Source: Planctomycetota bacterium (GTDB lineage: Bacteria; Planctomycetota; UBA1135). Taken from it: 64,000 nt of DNA. Positions 758-23,609 of the stretch are shown here, in pieces (position 1 is the stretch's first letter; each line of letters opens with the position of its first letter). The notes beneath the pieces are model-generated. The model did not search any database, had not been told where the DNA came from, and saw only the letters and a list, made by a program, of their open reading frames with translations. The stretch is taken from assembly GCA_021776795.1 (NCBI GenBank), contig JAJFFC010000012.1, positions 1 through 64,000 of the forward strand, given 5' to 3'. Position numbers and translations under genes: made by a program.

Positions 758-834
758 GCGCCCGTAGCTCAGCAGGATAGAGCGGTCGGTTCCTAACCGG
801 CAAGTCGCAGGTTCGAATCCTGCCGGGCGCGCCA
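758..834 (+). tRNA. tRNA-Arg(CCT)
   Basis: A full cloverleaf can be drawn. The acceptor arms are GCGCCCG (758-764) and CGGGCGC (824-830). The D stem is GCTC/GAGC. The anticodon stem GTCGG/CCGGC encloses the loop TTCCTAA with anticodon CCT at 792-794. The T stem GCAGG/CCTGC encloses TTCGAAT. The discriminator base is G and CCA is encoded at 832-834. It decodes AGG. Its 3' end is duplicated at 4339-4361, so it appears to be the attachment site of the neighbouring island. Confidence 0.95.
811..833 (+). repeat. Left direct repeat of tRNA-borne island (attL-like)
   Basis: These 23 bases cover the T loop, T stem, acceptor strand and the first two bases of CCA. They match 4339-4361 at 22 of 23 positions (C versus T in the T stem). 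A tRNA 3' end repeated at a distance is the classical footprint of site-specific integration. Confidence 0.8.
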
Positions 835-903
835 CCTTCCTTTTGCAGCGAGCGTGTTCATGGGCATTCGCAGGAGGTGCGGTGGTTTCGGTAAGATGCC
901 AAC

Positions 904-1359
904 ATGCCGCAATCCATTTCCTATGCAGCTTCTTTTAAGTCGGAAGTTTCACGACTAGCAAGAAAGGAAGCGAAAGCTCTCGTTGGTCCAATCGCAATGG
1001 ACCTAATCAAAGCCAAGAAGGTCATCTCGGCTCAGAGAAAAGAACTCGCCGATCTCCAGCGAAGCCTGAAGGCTCTGACCAAGGTGGTTAAGAAGCAAGC
1101 CGCTTCTTCGGGGCAAGCTGGTGCCGAGGCAGTTGAGAGCAAATTGGGGGAGAAATGGCGCAAGGACACTGTGCGCAGCACGCGCCGGAAGTTGCAGATC
1201 ACCCAAACCGAAATGGCGACGTTGCTGGGGGTCTCCATCGGTTCGGTGACTGGGTGGGAAACTGGCCGAACAGAGCCGAGGGAGCGCTTGAAGCAAGCTG
1301 TATTCAAGCTCAGAAATCTGACTCCGGCGAAGGCTGTGGCTCAACTGGAGGCGAGCTAG
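904..1359 (+). CDS. Coiled-coil/HTH (XRE-type) DNA-binding protein
   Basis: The protein has 151 residues. Residues about 15-85 are charged and predicted helical, rich in K, E, A and L, and suggest a coiled coil. Residues about 95-140 look like an HTH_3/XRE domain: QITQTEMATLLGVS followed by GSVTGWETGRTEPR, the usual recognition helix and the WE.G...P turn. It is probably a transcriptional regulator. It is the first gene inside the tRNA-bounded island and reads toward the ATPase genes about 150 bp downstream, so it may control them. The target is unknown. The ATG at 904 is preceded by a weak purine stretch. Confidence 0.75.
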   Translation: MPQSISYAASFKSEVSRLARKEAKALVGPIAMDLIKAKKVISAQRKELADLQRSLKALTKVVKKQAASSGQAGAEAVESKLGEKWRKDTVRSTRRKLQITQTEMATLLGVSIGSVTGWETGRTEPRERLKQAVFKLRNLTPAKAVAQLEAS

Positions 1360-1512
1360 TGAACGTTTCGACTGGCGGCAGAACGCTTGGCGCGGTCTGC
1401 TTTATCTTCGGATTGAGATTGTCATGTAATCGAGTTCTCACTCTCGCTAGGCGGATCTGCGGGCGCTCATTAGTGATCACGAACTCGAGATGAACTAGGG
1501 GGTGGTCAAACG

Positions 1513-1710
1513 ATGACGGAGCCAACAGAAAATGATGGTGTAGTGTGCAACCAAACGAAGCTTCGCGAGAAGCTCAAGGCGGACACGCTCGCGAAGCGCT
1601 TGGCGGACGCCTATGACGCGACTCACACTACCGAGGTAAATCAAGATGCGCTAAGGAAGGTTGTTGAGGCCGAACTCAACAAGGTGAGAAAGGGTATTGA
1701 AGAAAACTAG
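1513..1710 (+). CDS. Small helical protein upstream of split ATPase
   Basis: The protein has 65 residues, is acidic at the N-terminus and alternates charged and hydrophobic residues consistent with two or three helices (KLREKLKADTLAKRLADAY, then ALRKVVEAELNKVRKGI). I recognise no family. A purine-rich stretch (AGGGGGTGG) lies upstream of the ATG. Its last 14 bases overlap the TTG start of the ATPase gene, so the two are probably translationally coupled. It could be a partner, inhibitor or antitoxin of the ATPase; that role is inference from position only. Confidence 0.6.
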   Translation: MTEPTENDGVVCNQTKLREKLKADTLAKRLADAYDATHTTEVNQDALRKVVEAELNKVRKGIEEN

Positions 1711-3424
1711 AATCAAGTCGGTTGACGTCCGTGGCTTTCGAGCCTTCGGATTGTCTCCGCAGTCGCTCGCGTTCTCATCGGACATAGCCGTTGTTTGGGG
1801 GCCCAACAGTCAAGGGAAAACGAGTCTGGCCGAGGCGTTCGAGTTCCTTTTTACTGGGAGCATCGTCCGCCGAGATCTCCTCGCAAGCGCGAAGGACGAG
1901 TTTGCCGGGACACTCAGGAACGTGCACCTGCAAGACGAAGACGAGGTGTTCGTCGAAATCGAACTTGAGCACGACGGCAAGCCCCACACCGTTCGAAGAA
2001 CGCTTCTGAGTGACTACGCGAAGAAAGGGGACTGCGAGACAAAGCTCGAGGTCGATGGCCAATCGGCAGAGGAGAACGCGTTCCAAGGAATCGGGGTCAA
2101 ACTCTCTCAACCGCCACTCGCTGCACCCGTGCTCATGCAGCACACGCTGCCCTACGTGTTCTCTGCGGGACCCAAAGATCGATCCGCGTACTTCAAGGCA
2201 CTCCTAGATGTTGAGGACTTGGATCGCTTCCTTGAACTGGTTGAGTCGCACGGAGTCGAGCTCGAGGAACCCTCGGAGCTTGTGCTGCGTGACCTCAGGT
2301 CGTGTTCAGCGCGGGAGGCGATGTGTGAACCACTTGCACCCTTGCTTCGTGAGAAGGATCGATCCTTGGACGTTGAGCAAGCTCTCTCTGCTGCCGCTGC
2401 GGGGCTTCTCAAGGAAGCTGGGGTTGAATTGCCGGACGGCGCGCAGGCCCTGTTTAGTGCGGTTGAGAAGGCCCTCCATTCCCGCCAGACCGATACATTC
2501 CCGCTTGCTGACCTTGGCATGCGAGACCTAGATTCGTGGGCCTTTAACAGCGCTGGGCTCGGCGCGGCGACGGACGATCTCGAGGAGCAACGGACGAAGG
2601 TTGATGCGGAGATCGAGCGCCTCATTCCATTATTTGAGGCTGCCCTGAGAGTGGAGGCTATTGGAAAGGCAACTGAGCCGCAGCATTGTCCCCTTTGCGA
2701 AGACGGAACGTTGAGCATCGAACGCATCTCTGCGATTCGCGCCAAGCTTCAAGGGACGAAGGAATTTCAACGGGCCGAGGCATCCGCTCATTCAGCTCTC
2801 ACGGGCCTTTCCGACACACTCAAAGGTGCGCGCGACGGGGTCGAGCGCGCGCTTCCGCTGTTCATGCGTTCCTCCAGTATGCAGAGGAAAGAGCGAGGTT
2901 TCCATGTCGACCGCGCTCGTCGACTCGCCGGGGTTGACGGGCATGAGTCGGTCTCCCAATGGCTTGCGGCCACGCGCACACTTCTCCGGGTTTGGCGTGC
3001 GTTGCGTTTGCAGGTTGCCGAGGTGACAGGGTCAATCTCAGAGTTGAGTTCGAAGCTCTCATCTCTCGACAACGCGGTGTACGAGACGCTTTGGGAGGCG
3101 GTGGGCCGGATTGTTGAACTCCGCGCTGAGCTCGACGAAGCCACCGCTTCTTACAGGGGAGCAGAGGATGCGCTTCTCGCCGTTCTTCCTTCGGCTGTAG
3201 CTAAGGAGAGCAAGACGGAGGGGTGGCAGGAATTGATCGACCTATGGGCGAAGCACGACGACCTCAGCTCAGCACTCAATGAGTGGGAAGCGCGCTGTCG
3301 CGTGCAACGCGAACTCGAACGTGCCGTGAAAGCTCTCAAGAAGGGTATGGGGGAAGTGCTGGATGAGAAGATCTCTGCGATAAGCGGCGACGTCGCGGTG
3401 GTGGAATTTGCTTCGCCCCGGTGA
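1697..3424 (+). CDS. Rad50/RloC-like AAA ATPase, N-terminal part (split gene)
   Basis: This frame of 575 residues starts at TTG 1697. Residues 35-42 form a Walker A loop (GPNSQGKT) after a beta strand, as in RecF/SMC/Rad50 N-termini. A long helical, charged middle follows, with CPLC near residue 330, resembling the zinc-hook CxxC of Rad50, SbcC and RloC. The frame stops at 3424 before any ABC signature or Walker B. Both of these occur in the overlapping frame starting at 3408, so this is half of one ATPase. Removing one C from the CCCC run at 3416-3419 would join the frames. Family members act as DNA-end or damage sensors; RloC adds an anticodon nuclease. The island context suggests phage defence. 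The gene may be broken, phase-variable or mis-sequenced. Confidence 0.75.
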   Translation: MKKTRIKSVDVRGFRAFGLSPQSLAFSSDIAVVWGPNSQGKTSLAEAFEFLFTGSIVRRDLLASAKDEFAGTLRNVHLQDEDEVFVEIELEHDGKPHTVRRTLLSDYAKKGDCETKLEVDGQSAEENAFQGIGVKLSQPPLAAPVLMQHTLPYVFSAGPKDRSAYFKALLDVEDLDRFLELVESHGVELEEPSELVLRDLRSCSAREAMCEPLAPLLREKDRSLDVEQALSAAAAGLLKEAGVELPDGAQALFSAVEKALHSRQTDTFPLADLGMRDLDSWAFNSAGLGAATDDLEEQRTKVDAEIERLIPLFEAALRVEAIGKATEPQHCPLCEDGTLSIERISAIRAKLQGTKEFQRAEASAHSALTGLSDTLKGARDGVERALPLFMRSSSMQRKERGFHVDRARRLAGVDGHESVSQWLAATRTLLRVWRALRLQVAEVTGSISELSSKLSSLDNAVYETLWEAVGRIVELRAELDEATASYRGAEDALLAVLPSAVAKESKTEGWQELIDLWAKHDDLSSALNEWEARCRVQRELERAVKALKKGMGEVLDEKISAISGDVAVVEFASPR

Positions 3425-4214
3425 GCCCACGTTCTTTTCGGGGGTAAAGCGACGGACGAAGGCTGCACGGACCATCGACTTCAAGGCTTCGATCTCAGCG
3501 CACGTTGACCGAAGTAATGCAGAGACTCGTGACGCCGTAGCTGTGCTCAGCTACTCCCAACTCCAGTGTCTCGGGCTTTCACTTTTTCTGGCGCGCGCCG
3601 TCCGTGAAGAAACGGGCTTCATCGTTCTCGATGACCCAGTTCTCGCTGGGGACGATGACCACCGCCCAACGTTCGTGAACCAAGTGGTTCCTGAGCTAGA
3701 GAAGCGTGGAGTGCAGGTGATCGTGATGACGCAAGACCAGCTCATGAGGAGCAACATGCTGGACATCCATGCGCATCTGAAAATCGACTGCTTCCATCTG
3801 TCGCACGAGCCGGGATCAGGGACCGCCGTGGACAAGACAAGCGACGACCTTGAGGCAATGCTCGCGCGTGCGAGACCGTATGTCGGTAATCCCAATATTG
3901 AAATGAGAAAGAGTGCCGCGCGACTCCTCCGTGATGCAGCGGAGCGATTGTGCAAAGAGATCCTTGTTCACGGTCGACGCTCCAAAGGGGAAGCGGATGC
4001 GACGATCTCGGACTACGTCAATGCGAAGGGGACGCTTGGAAAATTGGTTCCGTTGGTGCAGCCGCTACTGACGAAGCCCGATGAGCCTGGGAAGCTCGTG
4101 TACATCCGCAAGACACTGAACCCGGGCGGGCACGATTCACCGGTCTACCCGAGCGGGCAAGAGACGAAGGCGGTGTTCGACCACTTGAACACACTGAAGA
4201 AGGCTTACAGGTAA
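3408..4214 (+). CDS. Rad50/RloC-like ATPase, C-terminal part with HEPN-like tail
   Basis: A frame of 268 codons opens at TTG 3408, 17 bases before the stop of the upstream half and shifted by one base. It supplies what that half lacks: an ABC signature-like LSYSQLQ (residues 47-53), Walker B FIVLDDP (71-77), and a switch region QVIVMTQDQ. Residues about 135-265 are helical with RLLRDAAERL and end in IRKTLNPGGHD. The latter resembles the IR..GN..aH motif of HEPN/DUF4145-like RNase folds, and RloC and PrrC carry nuclease domains in this position. The HEPN reading is tentative. Either a separately translated subunit or a frameshifted single gene is possible. Confidence 0.7.
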   Translation: MLRPGEPTFFSGVKRRTKAARTIDFKASISAHVDRSNAETRDAVAVLSYSQLQCLGLSLFLARAVREETGFIVLDDPVLAGDDDHRPTFVNQVVPELEKRGVQVIVMTQDQLMRSNMLDIHAHLKIDCFHLSHEPGSGTAVDKTSDDLEAMLARARPYVGNPNIEMRKSAARLLRDAAERLCKEILVHGRRSKGEADATISDYVNAKGTLGKLVPLVQPLLTKPDEPGKLVYIRKTLNPGGHDSPVYPSGQETKAVFDHLNTLKKAYR

Positions 4215-4306
4215 CGCGCAGCCTCCGAGGCGCGATTGGCGTTGGTGATGATGTTGCCCCAACACCCGGGTACGCTGGGATGGCGATATCTCGGCCTTAC
4301 CGGATT

Positions 4307-4361
4307 GAGGGACCGGATTGCTAACCGACAGGCCGCCTGTTCGAATCTTGCCGGGCGCGCC
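4307..4361 (+). pseudogene. Degenerate tRNA-Arg 3' half (attR-like remnant)
   Basis: The last 23 bases (4339-4361) match tRNA-Arg 811-833 with one difference. Upstream, 4307-4338 still resembles the anticodon arm (CCGG, a CTAACCG run) but with an extra base and a broken T stem (CGCCTG). No 5' acceptor or D arm is present. It is not expected to give a functional tRNA and marks the right end of island A. Confidence 0.75.
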
Positions 4362-4532
4362 GTCGAACCCACGACCCGAGGGAGCCTTCCATCAGGGTAT
4401 CAGGCCTGCGTTTCGCTCGTAGATCCAGACCAACGGTCCGCCGACTGCAATAAGTGCCCGAACCCCAATAGGCCATCGATTTGGACATGTATTCGATCCG
4501 ATTCAGGCCAGTGTCTTGGGGAACAGACAAGT

Positions 4533-4556
4533 GTATCGCGTAGCGCTACACGATAC
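4533..4556. promoter_or_regulatory. Inverted-repeat operator, probably bound by the downstream HTH protein
   Basis: GTATCGCGTAGC is directly followed by GCTACACGATAC; the 12-base arms are complementary at 11 of 12 positions with no spacer. It ends 26 bases before the ATG at 4583 and just upstream of a -10-like TATACT (4559-4564), where bound protein would block RNA polymerase. HigA-family antitoxins bind such repeats in their own promoters, and the next gene begins with a HigA-like HTH. Autoregulation is therefore likely. Confidence 0.65.
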
Positions 4557-4582
4557 GGTATACTGGCGGGTTCAGGTTAGCC

Positions 4583-7500
4583 ATGAAGAAAAAGACCGGC
4601 CCAGACCCCCTTCATCCCGGCCCGTACATCCGGGCCAATGTTCTACCAGACGGCGTGAACGTGACTGAGGCAGCGGCACAGTTGGATGTTGGCAGGCCGG
4701 CGCTCTCAAACCTATTGAACGGCAAAGCCGCCCTGTCGCCGGACATGGCCGCCCGTATTGAGCGCGCCTTCGGCGCACGAGCGCGGGATCTCCTGGACAT
4801 GCAGGCGGCCTTCGATGCTCGCGTCGCCAAGGACAAAGGGGCGACAACCGCAGTGAAGCCGTATGTTCCGCCGTTCTTGCAATTCAAATCCGGGGACATC
4901 GGCGTTTGGGCGAACTCAATAAGCTCGCGGAGTCGCTTTGCAGTGCTCTTGAGGACCTTGATTAATTCGACGGGGCAACAGCTGGAGAGGGTCGAATTTC
5001 CTGGGAACGACAACGCCGAGCGACCTGGATGGGATGGACTTGTCGAGGCTAGAGAAGCAACGCCGTGGATTCCGCCGGGCAAGTCCGGCTGGGAGTTCGG
5101 CGTCAAAAAAGACCCGAAGCGGAAGGCCGACGGCGACTACACGAAAAGCGTAGCTCAAACTCCGGAAGAGGAACGCGCTGAGATCACCTTTGTATTCGTC
5201 ACGCCGCGAAACTGGCCGGGTAAAACCGAGTGGGAAAAACAGCGCCGAACTGACGGCCACTGGAAAGAGGTGCGGGTCTTCGACGCCAGCGATCTTGAAG
5301 CGTGGTTGGAGCAGTCAATCCCCGCGCAAGCGTGGTTGGCAAATGAGCGTGGCATCCCCTCGGATGGGGTATTGTCGCTGGATGCCTGTTGGCGGGAATG
5401 GGCGGCGGATTGTGAACCGGCGCCAGTAACCACTTTGTTCGATCCTGCTGTCGCGAGCGCGAGACTGACAGTGAAGTCTCGGTTCTCCAAGGACAGCTCG
5501 GAGCCGATCGTGATTTCTGCAGATTCAACAATGGAGGCGATGGCGTTTCTCCATTGTCTCTTTTCGCCGGATAATCCCGACATTTCGGTTTTTAGGGATC
5601 GAATCGCCGTCTTCACGGTACCTGGCGCACTTTCGCGCTTGGCTTCAGCGTCTTCCAATTTCATAGCCGTCGCTGCCTGCCGGGAGGTCGAAAGAGAGTT
5701 GGCCCAGCACAAGAGTGCGTTGCGTTCCGTCATTATCTATCCGCGCAACGCTACCAATGCGGATCCCGACATCGTACTGGAGCCGCTGAATCACGAGTCC
5801 TTTGACAAGGCGCTGCAGGAGATGGGGTGCAGCCGCGACGATATTCAGCGCTATGCTCATGAATCGGGGCACTCGCCTACGGTGTTGCGACGCAGGCTCT
5901 CGAAACTTGACGCTATCCGAACGCCTCCATGGGCGGCGGATAAGGCCGTTGCCAAGAGTCTCATTCCTTTCCTATTCGCGGGATCATGGAAGGCAAACAA
6001 CCAGGCTGATCAGACCATATTAGAGCTACTGGCTGACAACCAGTCGTTCAGCAAGCTCGAAAGCGATCTTGCCTCCCTTGCCCAACTTGATGATTCGCCC
6101 GTCTGGTCCGTGGGTGCGTTTCGTGGTCTCGTTTCGAAGATCGACGTTCTCTTCGCTGTCAACAAGGACATCATTGGCGACGAAATCAAGCGCTTCTTGA
6201 ATGTGGCCAAATTGGTTCTCTCCGAAGATGACCCCTCTTTGGAATTGCCCGAAGACGAGCGCTGGGCGGCCGGTATTCACGGCAAGGTCCGTGAGATTTC
6301 TGCAGCGCTGCGGGACGGTATTTCGGAGACGCTCGTTCTGGTCTCGACTCACGGCACTTCCTTGTTCCGCGAACGGCTCGGCATAGATCCTGAAGTCGAG
6401 GTCGGCCGCGTGATCCAGTCATTGCTCACGCCACTAACCAGCCGCGCTCTTGAAGCGCACTCGGGTGATTTGCCAATGTACGCCGAGGCTGCGCCTGACG
6501 TTTTTCTGACAATGCTGGAAGAAGATCTGAACTCAGGCGATCCCCAATCTCTTGGGCTAATGCGTCCCGCAGGCACCGGGATATTCGGGCGCTGTCCGCG
6601 AACCGGGCTCCTCTGGGCACTCGAAAATCTCGCGTGGTCGCCTGATTACCTGGCTCGGACCGTTCTCGTTCTGGGACGTCTCGCGCAACCCGTCATCAAT
6701 GACAACTGGGCCAATAAGCCAAGCAAGAGCCTGAGTGCGATTTTTCGTTGCTGGATGCCCCAGACAGCCGCGTCACTTGAGAAGCGGGTTGCCACCCTTG
6801 AACTACTGGCAGAAAAACTGCCGAAGGTTGCCTGGCGAATCTGCATGGAGCAGTTTGATGGTAGCCAGAGAATTGGAGACTACAGCCATAAGCCCCGCTG
6901 GCGAACAGACGGGCACGGTTTCGGCGAGCCTCTCCCGACCCGCAATCTAGTCTACGTATTCGCGCGTCATGCTTTGGATATGGCGCTTGCGTGGGAGTCG
7001 CACGACCGTGAGATGCTCGGTGATCTTGTTGCATGCGCGAACGATCTTGAAGCGGAGGATAGGGACGCGATTTGGAGCCTAATCGAAGTGTGGAGCAAGA
7101 GCGCGTCCGATGAGGACAAAGGCTGGATACGCGAGAAAATCCGTGTCAGCGCGTTCACGCGGCGTGCCATCAAACGCGGCGAGAAGCGGGGCAGGGATGA
7201 CGAAACACTCAAACGTGCTCGCCAAGTCTATAATTCTCTCCTGCCCTCAGATGTCAATTTCAAACACGAGTGGTTGTTTCGGAATCATTGGGTGGAGGAA
7301 TCGGCGGACGAGCTGGAAGATGAGGATCTTGACCATCGAGAGCGAGAGAAACGCATCACCGCACTTCGTACGGACGCTCTGAAGGAGATATTTGAGGCCC
7401 AGGGATTGGATGGAATTCTACGTGTCGCAGAAATGGGGGAGGCTTCGGGCGTGATTGGCTGGCTGCTTCCCAAAATTCTGGAGAAGCCGACCAAGATAGC

Positions 7501-8671
7501 GGAAGTCTTGCGCACTCTTGCAGAATGCAATCCGCCGCTATCGGAGTCGCCTTCGCGACGTTCGATAATCAGTGGCGCGCTTCAGGATGAACATGCTGTG
7601 AGCGTGCTCCCTGTGCTCATTGAAGGCATGACGGAGTCAGAGGTGGTTTCTGTCATCTCTTTAGCACCGTTTTCTCGGCCCACCTGGGACTTGCTGGGGA
7701 CGCTGGAAGGGGGCGTGCAGACTCGATACTGGGGCGAGATTTCACCGCAGTGGTTTCACAGCTCCGCTGAGGACTTGCAGTTCGCTGTGGGCAAACTACT
7801 GGAAGTGAACCGTCCCAAGGCCGCGTTTCAACTCATCCGTTGCGATATAGAGGGAATCCAACCCAGGGTTCTTTTCCGGGCTCTCATGGAGATAGCATCG
7901 AACAGTCAGGAAGAGGCCGGAACCTATCAGTTCGAATCCTACAACATCGGACAAGCGTTCGAAGTTCTCAACAAAAGCGGTGAGATTGACGTTGATGACA
8001 TGGCGGCGCTTGAGTTTCGCTACATCGAGGTGTTTGACCGTGACGAGGGCCGAATTCCCAATCTCGACCTCCAACTAGAAAAGCACCCTGAGCTGTTCGT
8101 TCAGGCAGTCGTACTTGCCTACAAGCGCGATGATGGGGGCGAGGACCCTGAGCATTTCCGCCAACCAGATCAGGAGCAGCGCAAGCACCGGGCGATGTCG
8201 GCATACAGGCTTCTGGAGCGACTTTCACGCATTCCTGGACGAAATCGAGAGGGGGAGTTGGACGCCCAGGAAATCCAGGCGTGGGTTCGGCGTGTGCGCG
8301 GCGAATGTGCGGAACTCGCTCGGAGTAACGTCTGTGACCTATCACTTGGTAAGTTGTTTTCGACTGCGTCGGTGGGAGAGGACGATGTGTGGCCGTGCAA
8401 GCCCGTAAGGGATGCGCTAGAGACGCTTGCAACGGACGAACTCGCAAGTGGTATTAGAAACTCCCTCTACAACTCGCGCGGCTTTCATTTTCGCGGCGAA
8501 GACGGCGATGGCGAACGTCAGCTAGCGGAGAAATACCGAAAATGGGCCCAGGCCCTCGAATTTACCCATCCGCGGGTCGCGAAGATAATGCAGCAGATGG
8601 TAGAAACCTACGAGCGCGAAGCGAAATCGCACGACACGGAAGCAGGCGTTAGAAAGCGTCTTCGCAAGTGA
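4583..8671 (+). CDS. Giant HigA-type HTH / nuclease-like / STAND-like protein
   Basis: The protein has 1362 residues. Residues about 12-65 are a HigA-like HTH (HPGPYIRAN, then LDVGRPALSNLLNGKAALSPDM, then AFG). Residues about 105-250 form a compact domain with RPGWDG, WIPPGKSGWEFG and a KADGDYTK stretch, reminiscent of nuclease-like domains in defence NTPases, but no clean D..ExK triad is visible. Residues about 290-440 have a STAND-type order: VISADSTMEAMAF sits where a P-loop would be expected, followed by LEPL and SGHSPTVLRRRL. There is no GxxxxGKT, so ATP binding is doubtful. The remainder is helical and repeat-like, probably a target sensor. It is coupled to the downstream metallopeptidase. 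Defence by target recognition is an inference. Confidence 0.7.
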   Translation: MKKKTGPDPLHPGPYIRANVLPDGVNVTEAAAQLDVGRPALSNLLNGKAALSPDMAARIERAFGARARDLLDMQAAFDARVAKDKGATTAVKPYVPPFLQFKSGDIGVWANSISSRSRFAVLLRTLINSTGQQLERVEFPGNDNAERPGWDGLVEAREATPWIPPGKSGWEFGVKKDPKRKADGDYTKSVAQTPEEERAEITFVFVTPRNWPGKTEWEKQRRTDGHWKEVRVFDASDLEAWLEQSIPAQAWLANERGIPSDGVLSLDACWREWAADCEPAPVTTLFDPAVASARLTVKSRFSKDSSEPIVISADSTMEAMAFLHCLFSPDNPDISVFRDRIAVFTVPGALSRLASASSNFIAVAACREVERELAQHKSALRSVIIYPRNATNADPDIVLEPLNHESFDKALQEMGCSRDDIQRYAHESGHSPTVLRRRLSKLDAIRTPPWAADKAVAKSLIPFLFAGSWKANNQADQTILELLADNQSFSKLESDLASLAQLDDSPVWSVGAFRGLVSKIDVLFAVNKDIIGDEIKRFLNVAKLVLSEDDPSLELPEDERWAAGIHGKVREISAALRDGISETLVLVSTHGTSLFRERLGIDPEVEVGRVIQSLLTPLTSRALEAHSGDLPMYAEAAPDVFLTMLEEDLNSGDPQSLGLMRPAGTGIFGRCPRTGLLWALENLAWSPDYLARTVLVLGRLAQPVINDNWANKPSKSLSAIFRCWMPQTAASLEKRVATLELLAEKLPKVAWRICMEQFDGSQRIGDYSHKPRWRTDGHGFGEPLPTRNLVYVFARHALDMALAWESHDREMLGDLVACANDLEAEDRDAIWSLIEVWSKSASDEDKGWIREKIRVSAFTRRAIKRGEKRGRDDETLKRARQVYNSLLPSDVNFKHEWLFRNHWVEESADELEDEDLDHREREKRITALRTDALKEIFEAQGLDGILRVAEMGEASGVIGWLLPKILEKPTKIAEVLRTLAECNPPLSESPSRRSIISGALQDEHAVSVLPVLIEGMTESEVVSVISLAPFSRPTWDLLGTLEGGVQTRYWGEISPQWFHSSAEDLQFAVGKLLEVNRPKAAFQLIRCDIEGIQPRVLFRALMEIASNSQEEAGTYQFESYNIGQAFEVLNKSGEIDVDDMAALEFRYIEVFDRDEGRIPNLDLQLEKHPELFVQAVVLAYKRDDGGEDPEHFRQPDQEQRKHRAMSAYRLLERLSRIPGRNREGELDAQEIQAWVRRVRGECAELARSNVCDLSLGKLFSTASVGEDDVWPCKPVRDALETLATDELASGIRNSLYNSRGFHFRGEDGDGERQLAEKYRKWAQALEFTHPRVAKIMQQMVETYEREAKSHDTEAGVRKRLRK

Positions 8672-9606
8672 TGTCCGGCGGAAACCTTGAACAATCGCAT
8701 GACCCCAAGGACTTGCTGATTGGTCTCATCGCAGACGCCGTTCCCGAACGTGCCAACGAATTTGCTGACCTCTGGAGTCGGTACGATCCGGAGCTGCAAA
8801 TAGTCAATAGCGTTCGTGGTATCACCTTAGATGCGACGAAAGACCGTATCAGGTTCGACGTCAAGACCATGGAGGTCTTCTGGCTTATCGGGTTCTCTGG
8901 ATGGCGCGCTATCGAGTGCTATTCGCCGCATGTCGTCCTTTCTTGCCTCAGAGGTAAGCCTATAGAGACGTTAATCGCTTCTGACACTGAGCTTCCTAGT
9001 TTTGAGCGCGACTACAAGGAACGAATCGCTGCCTGCCAGACTCTCATTGATGTCGCAAATGCGGCGCAGACTGTTTGGCCACCGGATCTTCCTAGGCCTG
9101 GTGCTGATAGACAGGCGTTCGCCGACGACCAATACAAGACTGCCTACGATCTCACTTGGTCAGCGATTGCATTCACAATCTTGCATGAATTTCATCATGT
9201 CATGCTCGACAAGGACGATCAGCGGCCAAGTGATAGGCGCGAGGAAGAGCTATTCTGCGACGTTTGGGCAAGGCAGTTCATGACAGAACGTCTCGAAATC
9301 TACGCAAGCAAGAATGGCCACGATTATCTCAGTGTCCTTCTCAGGAGGTTAATGGGCCTCGCTCTGGCTTCGCTAATTTTGCATGAGGTGACTCCCTTCT
9401 GGGTGCTTGGCGGTAACAGCGATTATTTCTCCATTGGCGAACGCCTGACCGCCATCCTGGACAACGCCGCACTCCCCGAAGACAGCCATTTTTGGGTGTT
9501 TGTTGCATCGCTATTGATCGGCGTCTATCGCCAGAGGAATGACAAGGTCAACTTTGCCCCGACGGACGCCAAGGAGTTGGCGAGGCATTTGATAGCCGGA
9601 CTTTAG
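8671..9606 (+). CDS. Lit-like (peptidase U49 type) zinc metallopeptidase
   Basis: The protein has 311 residues from ATG 8671, which overlaps the upstream TGA by one base (TGATG); an adjacent GTG at 8668 is also possible. HEFHH at residues 172-176 is an HExxH zinc motif. About 15 residues on, REEELFCDVWARQF gives the acidic third ligand and a helix typical of ImmA/IrrE and Lit-type peptidases. The overall plan, with a motif in mid-protein followed by a hydrophobic C-terminal half, recalls Lit, which cleaves EF-Tu during phage T4 exclusion. Paired with the HTH-STAND-like protein it looks like the effector of a defence module. The substrate is unknown, and ImmA-like regulator cleavage is an alternative. 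Confidence 0.65.
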   Translation: MSGGNLEQSHDPKDLLIGLIADAVPERANEFADLWSRYDPELQIVNSVRGITLDATKDRIRFDVKTMEVFWLIGFSGWRAIECYSPHVVLSCLRGKPIETLIASDTELPSFERDYKERIAACQTLIDVANAAQTVWPPDLPRPGADRQAFADDQYKTAYDLTWSAIAFTILHEFHHVMLDKDDQRPSDRREEELFCDVWARQFMTERLEIYASKNGHDYLSVLLRRLMGLALASLILHEVTPFWVLGGNSDYFSIGERLTAILDNAALPEDSHFWVFVASLLIGVYRQRNDKVNFAPTDAKELARHLIAGL

Positions 9607-9855
9607 AGAACAGCGTGATCTTGCTCCGGTCAGAAGGGCACCAGGGTGAAAGGGGGCCGCCACTCTCAGATCGAGCGACTAGTCCAACATCGCAGCCAGT
9701 CCGAGGATTGCGAGTTTCAATTTGTCCGAGAGGTTCGGCCATGCGGTGACTAGAGCGGTCAACTGCGGATCAAGACTCCTGCATGCTGACCTGCATGCAC
9801 TGCACGAGAGAACGCCTAAGCAGCCTTCTTCGCAGCCACTTACATCACCCGCACA
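9607..9855. other. Non-coding stretch after island B genes
   Basis: No gene, clear terminator or promoter is seen. The sequence leads into a truncated tRNA. The tRNA 5' half that would be expected around 9829-9855 is absent; that stretch does not contain the GTCCCCG needed to pair with the 3' acceptor strand. Confidence 0.5.
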
Positions 9856-9905
<50 letters not shown>

Positions 9906-10010
9906 TCCCCCGCGCGGCCTTTCGCGCAGGCGCGAGGCCCCTCGGTGGATGCCGCCCCCGCGAGTCTTCTTTGGCGAAGGTTGGCTCGCTGACGCAAGCC
10001 GCGCTTCGCG

Positions 10011-10031
10011 TCGAATCCTCTCGGGGACGCC
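10011..10031 (+). repeat. Second copy of tRNA 3' end (21-bp direct repeat)
   Basis: These 21 bases are identical to 9884-9904, from the T loop through the acceptor strand. The copies are 127 bp apart and enclose a GC-rich segment with no gene. This again fits repeated integration or slippage at a tRNA 3' end and closes the accessory region; secreted-protein genes resume at 10146. Confidence 0.7.
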
Positions 10032-19034: not shown

Positions 19035-19152
19035 GAGCGCAGTGTAGAGCGCCCACTGGGTGGGTGCTTCTCCCAAAAAAAGGCAATCCAATAACCCAGA
19101 ACAGCCTGAATTGGCATAGGATTAGGTGGCCCTCTCCGAAAACCGCAACATC

Positions 19153-19830
19153 ATGTCCCTCACACGCCTCTCCCTTGCCAGCCTGTGCGCATTGGCACTC
19201 ACTTCTGCGCCCGCGTTGGCGCAAAACACCCATGTGGTCACCGTATCACCAAGCAATGCCTTGGTTTTCGAAATGCCCGATCTCAACATCAATGTTGGCG
19301 ACACCGTCCTTTGGGTATGGGACGGCTCTGTCCGGCACGATGTCGTTTCCGTAGATGGTGCTTTTCAATCCGCCTTTGTGGTGGCACCGAATACCTTTAG
19401 CGTGACTTTTGACAACGTCTTTTTAGCTGCAAACCCAGTAGCCAACGACTTTTATGCCTACTTCTGTAGCCCACACCAGGGCGCGGGGATGGTCGGCAGT
19501 ATTCAAGTTTTGCCTGAGCGGATTCTCAGCGCCCCTTTGGTCGCTGGTCAATCTGGCACGATTTCCGTGACCGGGGCGAACCCGGGCAACACCGTCATCA
19601 TTGCCTACTCTTTGGCAGGCCCTGGCCCACTCGCCATGGTCTACGGTAGCTTGGCCCTGAGCCCGCCGATCAATCAACTGCCGCCACAAACCGCAGATGG
19701 TTCTGGGGCTGTGAACATTCCCGTCAGCATCCCCCCTGGATTAGCTGGTACCACGGTCTTCTTACACGCCGCAGAAACCTTGGGTGGAGGTAGCGGCATT
19801 TTGACGAACCCAGTTTCGGTAACTCTCTAG
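19153..19830 (+). CDS. Secreted plastocyanin-like cupredoxin (copy 1)
   Basis: The protein has 225 residues from ATG 19153; a GTG at 19126 would extend it without benefit. The signal peptide ends in APALAQ. Residues about 20-125 match the plastocyanin/amicyanin plan: LNINVGDTVLWVWD, first ligand His in SVRHDV, then FCSPHQGAGMVGSIQV giving Cys, His and Met ligands of a type 1 copper site. The rest is the shared C-terminal domain ending in GILTNPVSVTL. It is expected to be an extracytoplasmic electron carrier, plausibly a partner of the adjacent multihaem cytochrome. It is a tandem paralogue of the gene at 19954. Confidence 0.9.
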   Translation: MSLTRLSLASLCALALTSAPALAQNTHVVTVSPSNALVFEMPDLNINVGDTVLWVWDGSVRHDVVSVDGAFQSAFVVAPNTFSVTFDNVFLAANPVANDFYAYFCSPHQGAGMVGSIQVLPERILSAPLVAGQSGTISVTGANPGNTVIIAYSLAGPGPLAMVYGSLALSPPINQLPPQTADGSGAVNIPVSIPPGLAGTTVFLHAAETLGGGSGILTNPVSVTL

Positions 19831-19877
19831 ATAGAAGACCCTAAGCATTCCCCCCGAATGGTCGTCTTGGCGACCTA

Positions 19878-19905
19878 GCCCTGGCTCCGGAGAGCCAGGG
19901 CTTTT
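19878..19905 (+). terminator. Rho-independent terminator between cupredoxin genes
   Basis: A 9-bp perfect stem GCCCTGGCT / AGCCAGGGC has a 6-base loop and four T. It follows the stop at 19830 and separates the two paralogues into different transcripts. Confidence 0.8.
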
Positions 19906-19953
19906 CCTATATGATGGAGGAGCTCCCCCCTCTTTCGAGAACACCTTACGAAC

Positions 19954-20631
19954 ATGAACAACCTTCGCCTTTTTACAGCCAGCCTCGCGGCGGCACTTGC
20001 TTTTTCTGTCCCTAGTCTTGCCCAGAACACCCACGTGGTCCAAGTTGCCCCAAGCGGCTTTTCTTTTGAGCCACAAGATCTCAACGTCAATGTCGGCGAC
20101 ACCGTCCAATGGGTTTGGAATGGTGCAACAGCACACAACGTGAATTCCGATGATGGTGTTTTCTTCTCTGGCTTGCCAACGGTGGCGCCAAACACCTTTA
20201 GTGTCACCTTCGACAACACCTTCCTCGCCGCGAACCCAGTCGCCGGAGACTTCTACGGCTACCACTGTCAGCCTCACCAAGCCTTTGGCATGGTCGGCTC
20301 GATTCAGGTGTTGCCTGCGCGTACGTTGAGCTCGACCTTGGTGGCTGGTGCCACGGGCACCATCACGACTTCAGGGTCCATCCCTGGGAACTCGGTCATC
20401 ATTGCTTATTCCTTCACCGGTGCCGGCACGATTCCCATCATTTACGGCAGCCTGGCCTTGAGCCCACCGATTAACCAGTTGCCGCCCCGCACCGCAGATG
20501 GTTCTGGAGGGGTCACGATTTCGGTCAACGTGCCGATTGGCATGGCCGGATCCACAGTCCACCTGCATGCCGCGGAAATCCTTGGCCCAGGAGATGGCAT
20601 CCTGACCAATCCGCTTAGCGTGACGTTGTAA
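19954..20631 (+). CDS. Secreted plastocyanin-like cupredoxin (copy 2)
   Basis: The protein has 225 residues with a signal peptide ending in PSLAQ. The copper-site residues are His in ATAHNV, then YHCQPHQAFGMVGSIQV (Cys, His, Met). It is the same length as copy 1 and strongly similar across both domains (LNVNVGDTVQWVWN, GSLALSPPINQLPP, GILTNPLSVTL), so it arose by tandem duplication. Extra His and Gln residues before the Cys ligand region (YHCQPHQ against YFCSPHQ) could tune potential. It is an exported electron carrier. It converges with the DUF1080 gene across a shared hairpin. Confidence 0.9.
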   Translation: MNNLRLFTASLAAALAFSVPSLAQNTHVVQVAPSGFSFEPQDLNVNVGDTVQWVWNGATAHNVNSDDGVFFSGLPTVAPNTFSVTFDNTFLAANPVAGDFYGYHCQPHQAFGMVGSIQVLPARTLSSTLVAGATGTITTSGSIPGNSVIIAYSFTGAGTIPIIYGSLALSPPINQLPPRTADGSGGVTISVNVPIGMAGSTVHLHAAEILGPGDGILTNPLSVTL

Positions 20632-20644
20632 GGACTCGCGCCCC

Positions 20645-20679
20645 GGAGGCGACCAAATCTATAGGTCTTGGTCGTCTCC
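20645..20679. terminator. Hairpin between convergent genes
   Basis: GGAGGCGACCAA and TTGGTCGTCTCC form a 12-bp stem (one G-T pair) with an 11-base loop. It begins 14 bases after the cupredoxin stop and spans the stop codon of the convergent DUF1080 gene at 20659. It lacks a T run, so it may block antisense read-through or act as a weak bidirectional terminator. Confidence 0.45.
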
Positions 20680-21486
20680 GAGCGGGCGCACCCAAATATT
20701 CCGGTAGCGCACGGGATTGCCGTGATCCTGTAGCTGAATCGGCCCACGCTCAGGATATGGCTGGTCATAACTAGCCACGCGTCGGTGCAAAGTCGGCCCA
20801 AGAAGCTCCCGGTGCACCTGCACCGCGATGCCGTTATGAATCACGGTCATGACTGCCGGCCGTAACAGCTTGCCTTCAGCGTCGAAGCGTGGACCGCGGA
20901 ACAATATGTCGTAGCTTTGCCATTCCCCAGAAGGGCGACTGGCATTCACTAGAGGCGGCCATTGTCCATAGACCGCGCCCGCGGAGCCATCGACATAGCT
21001 GACGTTGTCGTGGGTATCCAATATCTGGACTTCATAGAGTCCATGTAGGAATACGCCGCTATTGCCCATGCCTTGGGAAGCGCCTTGCGGGTCAGCTGGT
21101 GTGGCCCACTCGACATGGAGTTGGCAATCGCCGAAGGATTCGCGGGTACGGATATCGCCAGTGCCGTTGACCATGGCGATGCCATTTTCGACCACCCATG
21201 CGGCATCCTTTCCGCCCGAAGATTGCCAAGCACCGAGGTCACGACCGTCAAATAACACGATGGCGTCTTGAGGCGGGTCGCCCACCTTGGCAGCGGGAGC
21301 CACCCGAGGCCGTTGCGGCCGTTCCTGGTCATGCACCTTCCACTTCTGGCCTGGAAGCTGAGGGGTATCGCTGTAGCCAGGCTTAGGTTTGACCGGGTCC
21401 TGCGCGGTGATGGGGGTGGACATAAGCAGGCCCAGGGCAATCAGCCCGCAGCCGGCAGCAAGAGGGAGGATGTAGGGGCGGAACAT
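20659..21486 (-). CDS. DUF1080 (3-keto-disaccharide hydrolase-like) secreted protein
   Basis: The protein has 275 residues with a signal peptide (residues 1-28, hydrophobic to TPITAQ). The DUF1080 hallmarks are DAIVLFDGRDLGAWQ, WVVENGIAMVNGTGDIRTRESFGDCQLHVEW, then GNSGVFLHGLYEVQILDT and GPIQLQDHGNPVRYRNIWVRP. The domain has a concanavalin-like beta-sandwich; characterised relatives act on 3-keto glycosides. It is probably a periplasmic glycan-processing enzyme. This family is heavily expanded in planctomycetes, which supports the taxonomic guess. It stands alone here. Confidence 0.9.
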   Translation of the reverse strand: MFRPYILPLAAGCGLIALGLLMSTPITAQDPVKPKPGYSDTPQLPGQKWKVHDQERPQRPRVAPAAKVGDPPQDAIVLFDGRDLGAWQSSGGKDAAWVVENGIAMVNGTGDIRTRESFGDCQLHVEWATPADPQGASQGMGNSGVFLHGLYEVQILDTHDNVSYVDGSAGAVYGQWPPLVNASRPSGEWQSYDILFRGPRFDAEGKLLRPAVMTVIHNGIAVQVHRELLGPTLHRRVASYDQPYPERGPIQLQDHGNPVRYRNIWVRPLGDDQDL

Positions 21487-21521
21487 GCGACCAGCCTAGC
21501 GAAGGGCGGTAGAATCCGTCT

Positions 21522-21989
21522 ATGCAGATTGACATCGGGATTCCTGAAGAGCAGCGCAAAGAGATTGCGGCTGATTTGAGCCTCCTTTTGGCGGACAGCT
21601 ACACGCTGTATCTAAAGACGCATTACTACCACTGGAATGTCGTCGGCCCGATGTTCCAAACGCTGCACTTGATGTTCGAGCAACACTACAACGAACTGGC
21701 AATTGCCGTCGATGTCATTGCGGAGCGGATTCGCGCCCTTGGTGAACTGGCTCCCGGAACCTACCGAGAGTTTGCCGGCATGTCTTCGATTGAGGAAGAC
21801 GAAGAGGTGCCTACCGCCGAAGAAATGATTCGCAACTTGGTGTTGGCCCATGAGCAAGTGGTGCGCACCGCACGCCACGCCATGTCGGCGGCTGAAGATG
21901 CTGGCGATGCCACCTCGGAAGACTTGCTGACCCAGCGCATGGAGTTCAGCGAAAAGACAGCGTGGATGTTGCGTAGCTTGCTGGCTTAG
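21522..21989 (+). CDS. dps: Dps-family ferritin-like protein
   Basis: The protein has 155 residues, a typical Dps subunit. Ferroxidase residues at the dimer interface are present: LYLKTHYYHWNVVGPMF (His), then MFEQHYNELAIAVDVIAERIRALG (Asp/Glu positions). It would form a 12-subunit shell that stores iron, consumes peroxide and protects DNA. There is no long lysine tail at the N-terminus, so DNA binding may be weak. It is divergent from the DUF1080 gene, with only 35 bp between the two starts. Confidence 0.9.
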   Translation: MQIDIGIPEEQRKEIAADLSLLLADSYTLYLKTHYYHWNVVGPMFQTLHLMFEQHYNELAIAVDVIAERIRALGELAPGTYREFAGMSSIEEDEEVPTAEEMIRNLVLAHEQVVRTARHAMSAAEDAGDATSEDLLTQRMEFSEKTAWMLRSLLA

Positions 21990-22993
21990 GCTTTCAGCAC
22001 GCTACTCAAGAGAAGGCCAACAAAGGTGACCACCATGGTCGGAACTAGAACTAGTCCAAGCCACGCGCTGGTGAGCAGGCCGCCGAGGTAGCCTCGACCG
22101 GTGCTGACCTTGAGCGATTGCAAAAAGTATCCCCAAAGCAAAAGCGCAAACGCAATCGTAAGCAGAACTCCCAGAGTGGATGGCAATGGGATTAGGCCAA
22201 CTGCTTTGGCGAAGATCATTGCGGCAAAGAAAAACGCCACAAGGTGCAGGGTGTAGATGAAGTGATCAAAATAAATTAGATTGCGCCGCCAGAACACCAT
22301 TCGCAAAGCCAAGGCGATGATCGGGAGAGCCAAAAATAGGGCCACCGGCAAGTCGGCGAAGATTTGGCGCGTCAGAGCGCGGTTGGCTTGGTCTGCTGGC
22401 ATTTGGTCCAGATGAGCCGCGCCAACCAGGAGCCGTTCCTTCAGCATGTTGCCAAGCCAAGTGGATTGCAGTGGCAGGCCTTGATGGACGACCTCCGTAA
22501 ACGTGCTTGGATTCGCATAGGCCTCCGCCTTGATCTGTTCAGCCAGCTCTTCCGCAGAGATCCCAGCTAAATCTTCCGCGGGCATGTCCGTCATTTCCGA
22601 GAGAAGTTCCTGTGCTGATTCTTCGCGATGGGCCGCGGCATCGTCAGACACACGCACCACGGAATTGGGATTTGTGGTCCAATTCAGGAGAAGAAAGAAC
22701 ACCACTGAGAAAAAGAAGTAGATCTTCAGCGGCGAGAGGTAGCGAGTGCGTCGGCCTTCTCGATAGTCGAGGGTCAGTGCCCCGGGGCGGCGCAGGAGGC
22801 GCCAGATTGTTGGCCAAAGCTTGGCTTCTGCGCCGAGCCAACTATTGAAGAAGTCGGCAATCAGGATGCGGAAATGTCCGCGCGGACTGCGCGTTTTTTG
22901 CCCGCACTTAGGACAAAAGTGGTGCGATGCCGTGGCATGACAATCCATGCACCGCTGAGGACCTTTGGACGACTGGGGGGAGGTCGTCGTCAA
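21986..22993 (-). CDS. DUF3667 membrane protein with N-terminal zinc ribbon
   Basis: The protein has 335 residues. An N-terminal zinc-ribbon pair CMDC...CPKC (residues about 16-34) is followed by the DUF3667 core: RPGALTLDYREGRRTRYLSPLKIYFFFSVVFFLLL. Four or five more hydrophobic segments fill residues 215-335. The role is unknown. It converges with dps, overlapping its end by 4 bases. Confidence 0.85.
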   Translation of the reverse strand: MTTTSPQSSKGPQRCMDCHATASHHFCPKCGQKTRSPRGHFRILIADFFNSWLGAEAKLWPTIWRLLRRPGALTLDYREGRRTRYLSPLKIYFFFSVVFFLLLNWTTNPNSVVRVSDDAAAHREESAQELLSEMTDMPAEDLAGISAEELAEQIKAEAYANPSTFTEVVHQGLPLQSTWLGNMLKERLLVGAAHLDQMPADQANRALTRQIFADLPVALFLALPIIALALRMVFWRRNLIYFDHFIYTLHLVAFFFAAMIFAKAVGLIPLPSTLGVLLTIAFALLLWGYFLQSLKVSTGRGYLGGLLTSAWLGLVLVPTMVVTFVGLLLSSVLKA

Positions 22994-22996
22994 GCT

Positions 22997-23593
22997 TTAC
23001 ATATATGGATTGACGCCTGAGGCGTGATCGGTGGCGTCGTGAATCGCGTTGATTTCCGGCACGCCATTACGCAAGGCCACTTCCACGCCTTGCTTCATGG
23101 TCATGGCTGCAGAGCCACAGCCTTGGCAGCCACCACCCATGGTGATGAACAAATCTTGGTCCGCACTCGCTTGAATCTCGACCCAACCACCATGCGAAGC
23201 TAGGTTGGGATTGAGCTCGCTGTCGATGATCATCTGCGCTTTGTGGCGCATCAGGTCATGGCCTTGCAGGGCATCGAGTGCGCCCTCCTTGACCGGTTCT
23301 CCACCTTCTTGGAGAAAGTTGCGAATCGCGGCGCCGGCGGAGCGTGCAATCACTCTCCAATCCTCAGGCACCGAGGCCATGGTGATCATGACTTCGGCAT
23401 CGGAAAAACGTACACCTTTGAGGTTATCTACCTCGGTCAGGAGGCGCGCTGCCAAGGGTGCCCATTCAGCGGCCCATGTGGCGTCACTCACGTAGAGCGT
23501 GCCGACATAAACGGGGCGCTCGACCCGAAACAGGCAATTGGTGGGGATGACCTGGGGTTCGGCGGTGATGCGGATTTGTGGTTGCTCAGTCAT
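22997..23593 (-). CDS. NifU-like (NfuA-type) Fe-S scaffold protein
   Basis: The protein has 198 residues from ATG 23593 (MTEQPQIRIT); the open frame extends upstream to 23797 but the added sequence is unlike protein. Residues 1-90 resemble the Nfu N-terminal domain (FRVERPVYVGTLYVSD, LLTEVDNLKGVRFSD). Residues about 125-190 are the NifU C-terminal domain with the cluster-binding CQGC in MGGGCQGCGSAAMTMKQGVE. It probably holds and transfers a 4Fe-4S cluster. It is followed after 3 bases by the DUF3667 gene and lies just downstream of the carbamoyltransferase, so the three may share a transcript. Confidence 0.85.
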   Translation of the reverse strand: MTEQPQIRITAEPQVIPTNCLFRVERPVYVGTLYVSDATWAAEWAPLAARLLTEVDNLKGVRFSDAEVMITMASVPEDWRVIARSAGAAIRNFLQEGGEPVKEGALDALQGHDLMRHKAQMIIDSELNPNLASHGGWVEIQASADQDLFITMGGGCQGCGSAAMTMKQGVEVALRNGVPEINAIHDATDHASGVNPYM

Positions 23594-23609
23594 GACATGT
23601 TCCTGTAGG

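Follow-up and report, generated by a model that had tools for sequence, protein, structure and literature searches.

The first 64,000 nucleotides of contig JAJFFC010000012.1 of a Planctomycetota bacterium (GCA_021776795.1; this whole stretch is here called the window) contain, at positions 758 to 4361, a defence-like islet that begins with a complete tRNA-Arg(CCT) gene and ends with a repeat of the 3' end of that gene. Our analysis indicates that this islet probably belongs, as a single compartment, to a tandem array of elements without an integrase, similar to cis-mobilizable elements (CIMEs), an array which lies in the anticodon loop of a second, native tRNA-Arg(CCT) gene, brings a replacement tRNA with it, and is moved by accretion or in trans. 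The original prediction, made from the sequence of the window, had proposed a cargo-only islet that was moved in trans or had lost its integrase. This was the right class of element, as the cargo is integrase-less and a C-terminal remnant of an integrase lies at the end of the array. The same prediction treated the islet as a self-contained unit with the tRNA at 758 as its host target, and neither of these claims was supported.

The native tRNA-Arg(CCT) gene and its copies

The features on which the argument depends are as follows.

758 to 834, plus strand: complete tRNA-Arg(CCT) with acceptor GCGCCCG/CGGGCGC (ARAGORN), read as the element-borne replacement copy
4302 to 4362, plus strand: T1, a decayed tRNA-Arg(CCT) that extends from about the D arm as far as the 3' end, with a TTGCTAA loop and a CCG end (sequence matches)
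9679 to 9867, minus strand: orphan C-terminal tail of an integrase (...LDPQLTALVTAWPNLSDKLKLAILGLAAMLD, stop), whose frame stays open through the attachment (att) core and T2 (open reading frame and comparison with a tail model)
9777 to 9799, plus strand: right arm TCCTGCATGCTGACCTGCATGCA with direct repeat CCTGCATGC, located 61 bp ahead of the core TTCCTAA, with exact or near copies at the right ends in genomes G001 and G006
9860 to 9905, plus strand: T2, the native tRNA-Arg(CCT) 3' half, whose core TTTCCTAAACCGA is the right attachment site, attR (ARAGORN on the joined halves; 44/45 to G001)
9906 to 10031, plus strand: native downstream flank, a module of about 126 bp that closes with a second copy of the 3' end of the tRNA, also found 3' of the intact native genes in G016, G023 and G002

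The 5' half of the native gene (GTCCCCG...GGTTTCCTAAACCG) is located on another contig of the same genome (G000), at C29:1842-1799, and when it was joined to T2 a complete 77-nt tRNA-Arg(CCT) was recognised by ARAGORN. In G001, which belongs to the same family but to another genus, the two halves are on one contig (C48rc 9959-9998 and 32345-32389) and also join into a complete tRNA-Arg(CCT). The native gene is full length in about 11 genomes of the family, including G016, where ppk1, ppx, a hypothetical gene and the intact tRNA follow each other in the gene order of C29, and G002, where a single contig carries the intact native tRNA together with homologues of a C29 flanking gene and of the window genes at 19126-25721. 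As the halves join and relatives have an intact gene between homologous flanks, one and the same locus has been interrupted, with C29 on one side of the break and the window contig on the other, and it is this second tRNA-Arg(CCT) gene, rather than the tRNA at 758, that was the target. The 5' half on C29 and T2 have the core TTTCCTAAACCGA in common, and as such form the attL and attR flanks expected of a CIME. The anticodon loop is where the array has cut the native tRNA, and an extra, complete copy lies on the array side at 758-834. This copy is the sole intact tRNA-Arg(CCT) seen in an assembly that is 89% complete, and we infer that it functionally replaces the disrupted native gene, with tRNA function probably preserved by this spare copy in the array. 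We note that the module that follows native tRNA-Arg genes contains a hairpin, and that it also occurs at contig C23 of the same genome and twice in G023.

The copies within the window are of different kinds. T2 is a third tRNA-Arg 3' half, better kept than T1 and with a TTCCTAA loop. Its end, CGGGGAC, pairs incompletely with the GCGCCCG acceptor of the tRNA at 758-834, an acceptor unlike that of the native split gene, and fits the 5' half on C29; T2 therefore belongs to another tRNA-Arg(CCT) gene. The tRNA at 758-834 has 95% and 87% identity to the two array-borne copies of G001. Its end at 811-833 recurs at 4339-4361 with one mismatch, as originally described: 22 of the 23 positions match, whereas the best match elsewhere in the window was 18/23 for 300 shuffled 23-mers and 16 for the real 23-mer outside the att sites. 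Over the 45-nt tRNA 3' half, 37/45 positions match at 4318-4362, BLAST matched about 60 nt of the tRNA at 80% around the 4339-4361 copy, and the likeness of T1 to a tRNA extends into the D arm. The 23-bp repeat proved not to be a general repeat in a search of the genome, and the tRNA-Arg loci of relatives, whose comparison had been suggested with the original prediction, act as empty sites or, in G001, hold other cargo between repeats of the same kind; as such, the findings that would have spoken against integration were not made.

It has to be considered whether the 3.5-kb islet alone is a stand-alone cargo element that entered a host tRNA-Arg and is bounded by attL (758-834) and attR (4339-4361). 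The 22/23 repeat with its anticodon-arm remnant is consistent with this, as is an analogous unit in G001 that consists of a complete tRNA, CopA-CsoR cargo and a decayed 3' half (38/45). However, the native gene is a different one from the tRNA at 758, T1 has no arm site and, given its likeness into the D arm, may be a decayed complete tRNA, and the islet sits within a larger array that continues with a second compartment at 4363-9859 and the third 3' half, T2. We therefore regard a stand-alone islet as doubtful, and a simple insertion into the host tRNA was rejected as the whole story once the split native gene had been found. Within the array, the first compartment (835-4301) may have inserted secondarily into the element-borne tRNA (758-834 and T1), or may be one of several tandem tRNA-headed units.

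Arrays in related genomes and the common right arm

The same layout is found in other genera. The array of G001, which is whole on one contig and has no integrase, runs from the native 5' half through a complete tRNA, CopA/CsoR cargo, the decayed 3' half, ArsR/RND-efflux cargo, and an arm with core, to a second complete tRNA, further cargo, a second arm with core, and the native 3' half. The left end in a third genus (G008) consists of the native 5' half, a conserved arm of about 87 bp that resembles G001 and includes CCTGCATG, and a complete tRNA, after which other cargo begins with a catalase-peroxidase. In G006, a type I methylase and a Gabija-like pair of OLD nuclease and UvrD end in the same arm and core, without a tRNA tail. 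This defence island (contig C22, L124, 10400-18890) has a methylase with a disturbed frame and an HsdS-like protein in addition to the OLD nuclease and UvrD. A decayed integrase near the G006 core was considered and rejected, as it belongs to a tRNA-Val insertion and reads away from that tRNA.

The spacing between arm and core is exactly 61 bp in the window and at the two right ends of G001, and by inspection in G006 too. Among 154 genomes of the order, copies of the arm with at most one mismatch were confined to G000, G001 and G006, with matches at two to three mismatches in other genomes. Relatives of the arm and of the integrase tail were absent from viral contigs, and none of the tRNA-Arg(CCT) loci inspected in other families was resolved into a matching integrase-bearing element.

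These right ends bear on the proposal that the repeats are tRNA gene duplications followed by homologous rearrangements, with no site-specific insertion. Such an origin could draw on the 25 bp common to tRNA-Arg 3' halves, and on the half tRNA on C23, which is a hybrid of CCT and CCG types, but in each of three genera the breaks coincide exactly with the anticodon loop, and the right ends have a common arm at a fixed 61-bp spacing together with an integrase tail, which makes this explanation very improbable. T2 is not accounted for by a simple reciprocal exchange of the CCT with the CCG locus, and this reading was also rejected.

Several points weigh against an integrase-less tandem array. In the metagenome-assembled genome, C29 and the window contig are separated by a gap that could hold an integrase, and the assembly is broken by repeats (terminal repeats of 137 bp and 93-205 bp). 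T1, with its 37/45 match, lacks the arm present at the other right ends. The CCT-type loop in the right half at the tRNA-Arg(CCG) locus makes some inter-locus rearrangement possible, and codon-position counts for the tails of integrase-less ends show a weak third-position bias, which is consistent with relaxed constraint. With respect to the contig ends, positions 1-205 of the window are a 97-100% repeat common to the ends of C12 and C18, which codes for the C-terminal end of a secreted-type protein and is probably the reason that the contig starts there. The left ends of C29 and C25 have a 99%-identical terminal repeat of 137 bp, which interrupts a Rep-like gene on one of these contigs and a gene for a secreted protein on the other, and is probably a mobile insertion.

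If an integrase does lie in this gap, the array could consist of one or more ordinary autonomous elements. The gap is real, the contigs end in repeats and the completeness of 89% would allow for it. In intact elements, however, the integrase reads straight into the left att core, the core on C29 has no adjoining integrase, and the one-contig array of G001 is likewise without one. Ordinary autonomous elements are as such quite unlikely, and the integrase of the array is either missing or in the assembly gap.

The orphan integrase tail and candidate helpers

The right ends have in common a minus-strand open reading frame that is in frame through the core and ends in ...WPxLS......I..LA, and which also crosses the tRNA fragment in the window and at one G001 end. 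In the window this frame is 125 aa long, runs through T2 and matches a phylum tail model (E 3.6e-15) that includes the window sequence itself. The closed genome G254 has the same kind of tail beyond a 47-bp tRNA-Lys repeat, and at the opposite end of the element a 465-aa integrase that reads into the tRNA; integrase and tail have the peptide EMKAVGLEPTTYGLK in common. More pairs of integrase and tail were found at tRNA-Ser (63-bp repeat), tRNA-SeC (32 bp), tRNA-Lys(CTT) (22 bp) and tRNA-Ile (22 bp), and at a tRNA-Leu with a repeat of 34/45, to give six Planctomycetota elements in all in which the integrase reads into the tRNA and the tail lies beyond the displaced tRNA 3' end.

Tailed integrase elements: L203/L204 (G254), L270-L271 (G420), L268-L269 (G487), L264-L265 (G458), L261 (G463) and L259-L260 (G385)

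Pfam PF00589 was matched by 5/5 of the integrases run (of the six), with the tRNA-Ile integrase slightly below the cut-off. A model of 13 tails found matches in 86 of 392 genomes of the phylum (E<=0.01), and antisense T-loop sequence was present ahead of 12/29 inspected tails, compared with 11% of control positions. Since the integrase reads into the tRNA and the tail lies past the displaced end, these integrase genes contain the attP site, and a conserved C-terminal tail is separated from the rest when the element integrates. A tail beyond a displaced tRNA end is a phylum-wide signature of true right element ends. A search of plasmids for full-length relatives of the G254 integrase gave no close match.

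It is likely from this that the array descends from elements of similar design. Its ancestors would have been integrase-bearing elements with strand exchange at TTCCTAA; their derivatives would have lost the catalytic part and retained the arm, the core and the tRNA, would then have been filled with defence or metal-resistance cargo, and would have moved in trans or by accretion through the integrases of related elements. More tentatively, these elements could form a trans-moved non-autonomous family with a full replacement tRNA and a retained arm, in which the C-terminus of the integrase would be swapped at each integration, the tail acting as an integration/excision switch and as a bacterial counterpart of the archaeal suicidal integrases. 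Such a detachable tail might offer a way of controlling the direction of integration.

A search of the genome for tyrosine recombinases, which had been proposed together with the original prediction, found five. One is a 353-aa integrase on C25, which lies just after tRNA-Arg(CCG) with an HTH-like (helix-turn-helix) gene and a Rep_1-type protein; the others are XerC/D-like proteins, an integron integrase and a recombinase encoded on a small contig. The tRNA-Arg(CCG) locus is also interrupted, with C25 as its left side and C23 as its right side by synteny with G016 and G002, and the tail on C23 carries the core TTTCCTAAACCGAAGG, identical to T2. We note that the right half of tRNA-Arg(CCG) at this locus (C25:1-3128 and C23:164341-164385) combines a CCT-type loop with a CCG-type acceptor end. 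No other tyrosine recombinase of this genome was found immediately next to a tRNA-Arg gene, and of those available the C25 integrase is the best candidate for acting in trans. That the integrase-bearing tRNA-Arg(CCG) element was itself the helper, acting on the TTCCTAA core, would agree with this position, with the core on C23 and with C25 and C23 flanking one locus. However, its gene reads away from the tRNA, unlike those of the orphan-tail integrases, its left core is TTCCGAA, and the tRNA-Arg(CCG) locus yielded no arm repeat, so that we consider this helper unlikely.

Known tRNA-associated elements and the cargo

The integrase-less tandem array resembles the CIMEs and the tandem ssrA islands of Dehalococcoides, in which compartments are bounded by tRNA or tmRNA repeats and some lack an integration module, and which are thought to move by accretion with their neighbours (PMC3146451). 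Integration genes, which a CIME lacks, were not found in the window or at the C29 end, between which lies the gap, nor in the one-contig array of G001. Unlike the Dehalococcoides islands, the array carries a whole replacement tRNA, the native gene remains split and an integrase tail remains, and its recombinase would be of the tyrosine type rather than a Ccr-like serine recombinase. In the Islander model, the disrupted target is restored by sequence from the island, and a displaced fragment marks the island end (PMC4383910). Insertion in a tRNA gene and a displaced 3' fragment at the end are common to both, but here the target is not regenerated: the native gene, of the GTCCCCG type, remains in two halves, and the tRNA carried instead is a complete one of the GCGCCCG type. 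As for an integrase of its own, the assembled parts on either side of the gap hold just the orphan tail. Tycheposons are tRNA-bordered cargo elements linked to tyrosine recombinases (PMC10872708), and of the two features compared, the array shares the tRNA-bordered cargo and lacks the recombinase. A 2021 review (PMC8371274) describes the suicidal (SSV-type) integrases as found in archaea alone; their gene contains attP and is split on integration. The Planctomycetota integrases also have attP within the gene, but their catalytic domain stays whole and just a short C-terminal tail is cut off; no description of bacterial attP-in-gene integrases was found in a literature search that covered subscription papers in part. 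What sets the array apart from these systems is that it carries a complete replacement tRNA, leaves the native gene unrepaired and retains the tail. The array shows that defence and metal-resistance cassettes can pile up in one tRNA gene without an integrase each.

The cargo of the two compartments is made up of the following genes.

904 to 1359, plus strand: XRE/MqsA-type HTH regulator, 151 aa (Pfam HTH_3 1.7e-6, TIGR03830 3.6e-8)
1513 to 1710, plus strand: 65-aa small protein overlapping the ATPase start, an overlapping pair also present in plasmid relatives and in L215
1697 to 4214, plus strand: SMC/Rad50-like ATPase with a CPLC hook-like motif, in two frames, 1697-3424 and 3408-4214 (Pfam AAA_23 1.6e-10)
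4583 to 8671, plus strand: 1362-aa protein with a HigA-type HTH N-terminus and a large uncharacterised body (TIGR02607 1.5e-15; phrog_18693 1e-124)
8668 to 9606, plus strand: Lit-like metallopeptidase with an HEFHH motif, 312 aa (NCBIfam PRK09672 8.4e-48; PADLOC Lit 4.7e-12)

Open reading frame and profile searches confirmed the predicted regulator, small protein and ATPase in the first compartment and found no recombinase among the genes between 834 and 4302; the same searches found none between 4362 and 9860. The ATPase had been called Rad50/RloC-like. Its SMC/Rad50 type was upheld, with AAA_23 and SMC_N scoring best, but the RloC assignment was not, as AAA_13 reached just E=0.095, and a 2-bp deletion had been missed. 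This deletion, at about 3393/3394, breaks the gene when judged against an intact, 72%-identical homologue (L215), although the frame break may be an assembly error rather than a true deletion. L215 and the same small protein lie directly 3' of tRNA-Gly(CCC) in another genome, and the gene pair recurs on plasmids. The ATPase also partially matches PADLOC LmuB (5.9e-17); a structure model of its C-terminal fragment, made with no alignment, had a mean pLDDT (predicted local distance difference test) score of 42 and was not used. In the second compartment, the peptidase remained below the Lit family cut-off (163 bits versus a curated 274 for PRK09672), and full-length relatives of the 1362-aa protein (38-48% identity) are found on plasmids of Ensifer, Shewanella and Halioglobus. 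The label of defence for this cargo is one of family resemblance and would apply to putative functions. In addition, integron integrases were observed in this genome at C7:217070-217672 (L058; TIGR02249, E 8e-132) and in G008 on C194 (L108; 2.5e-125).

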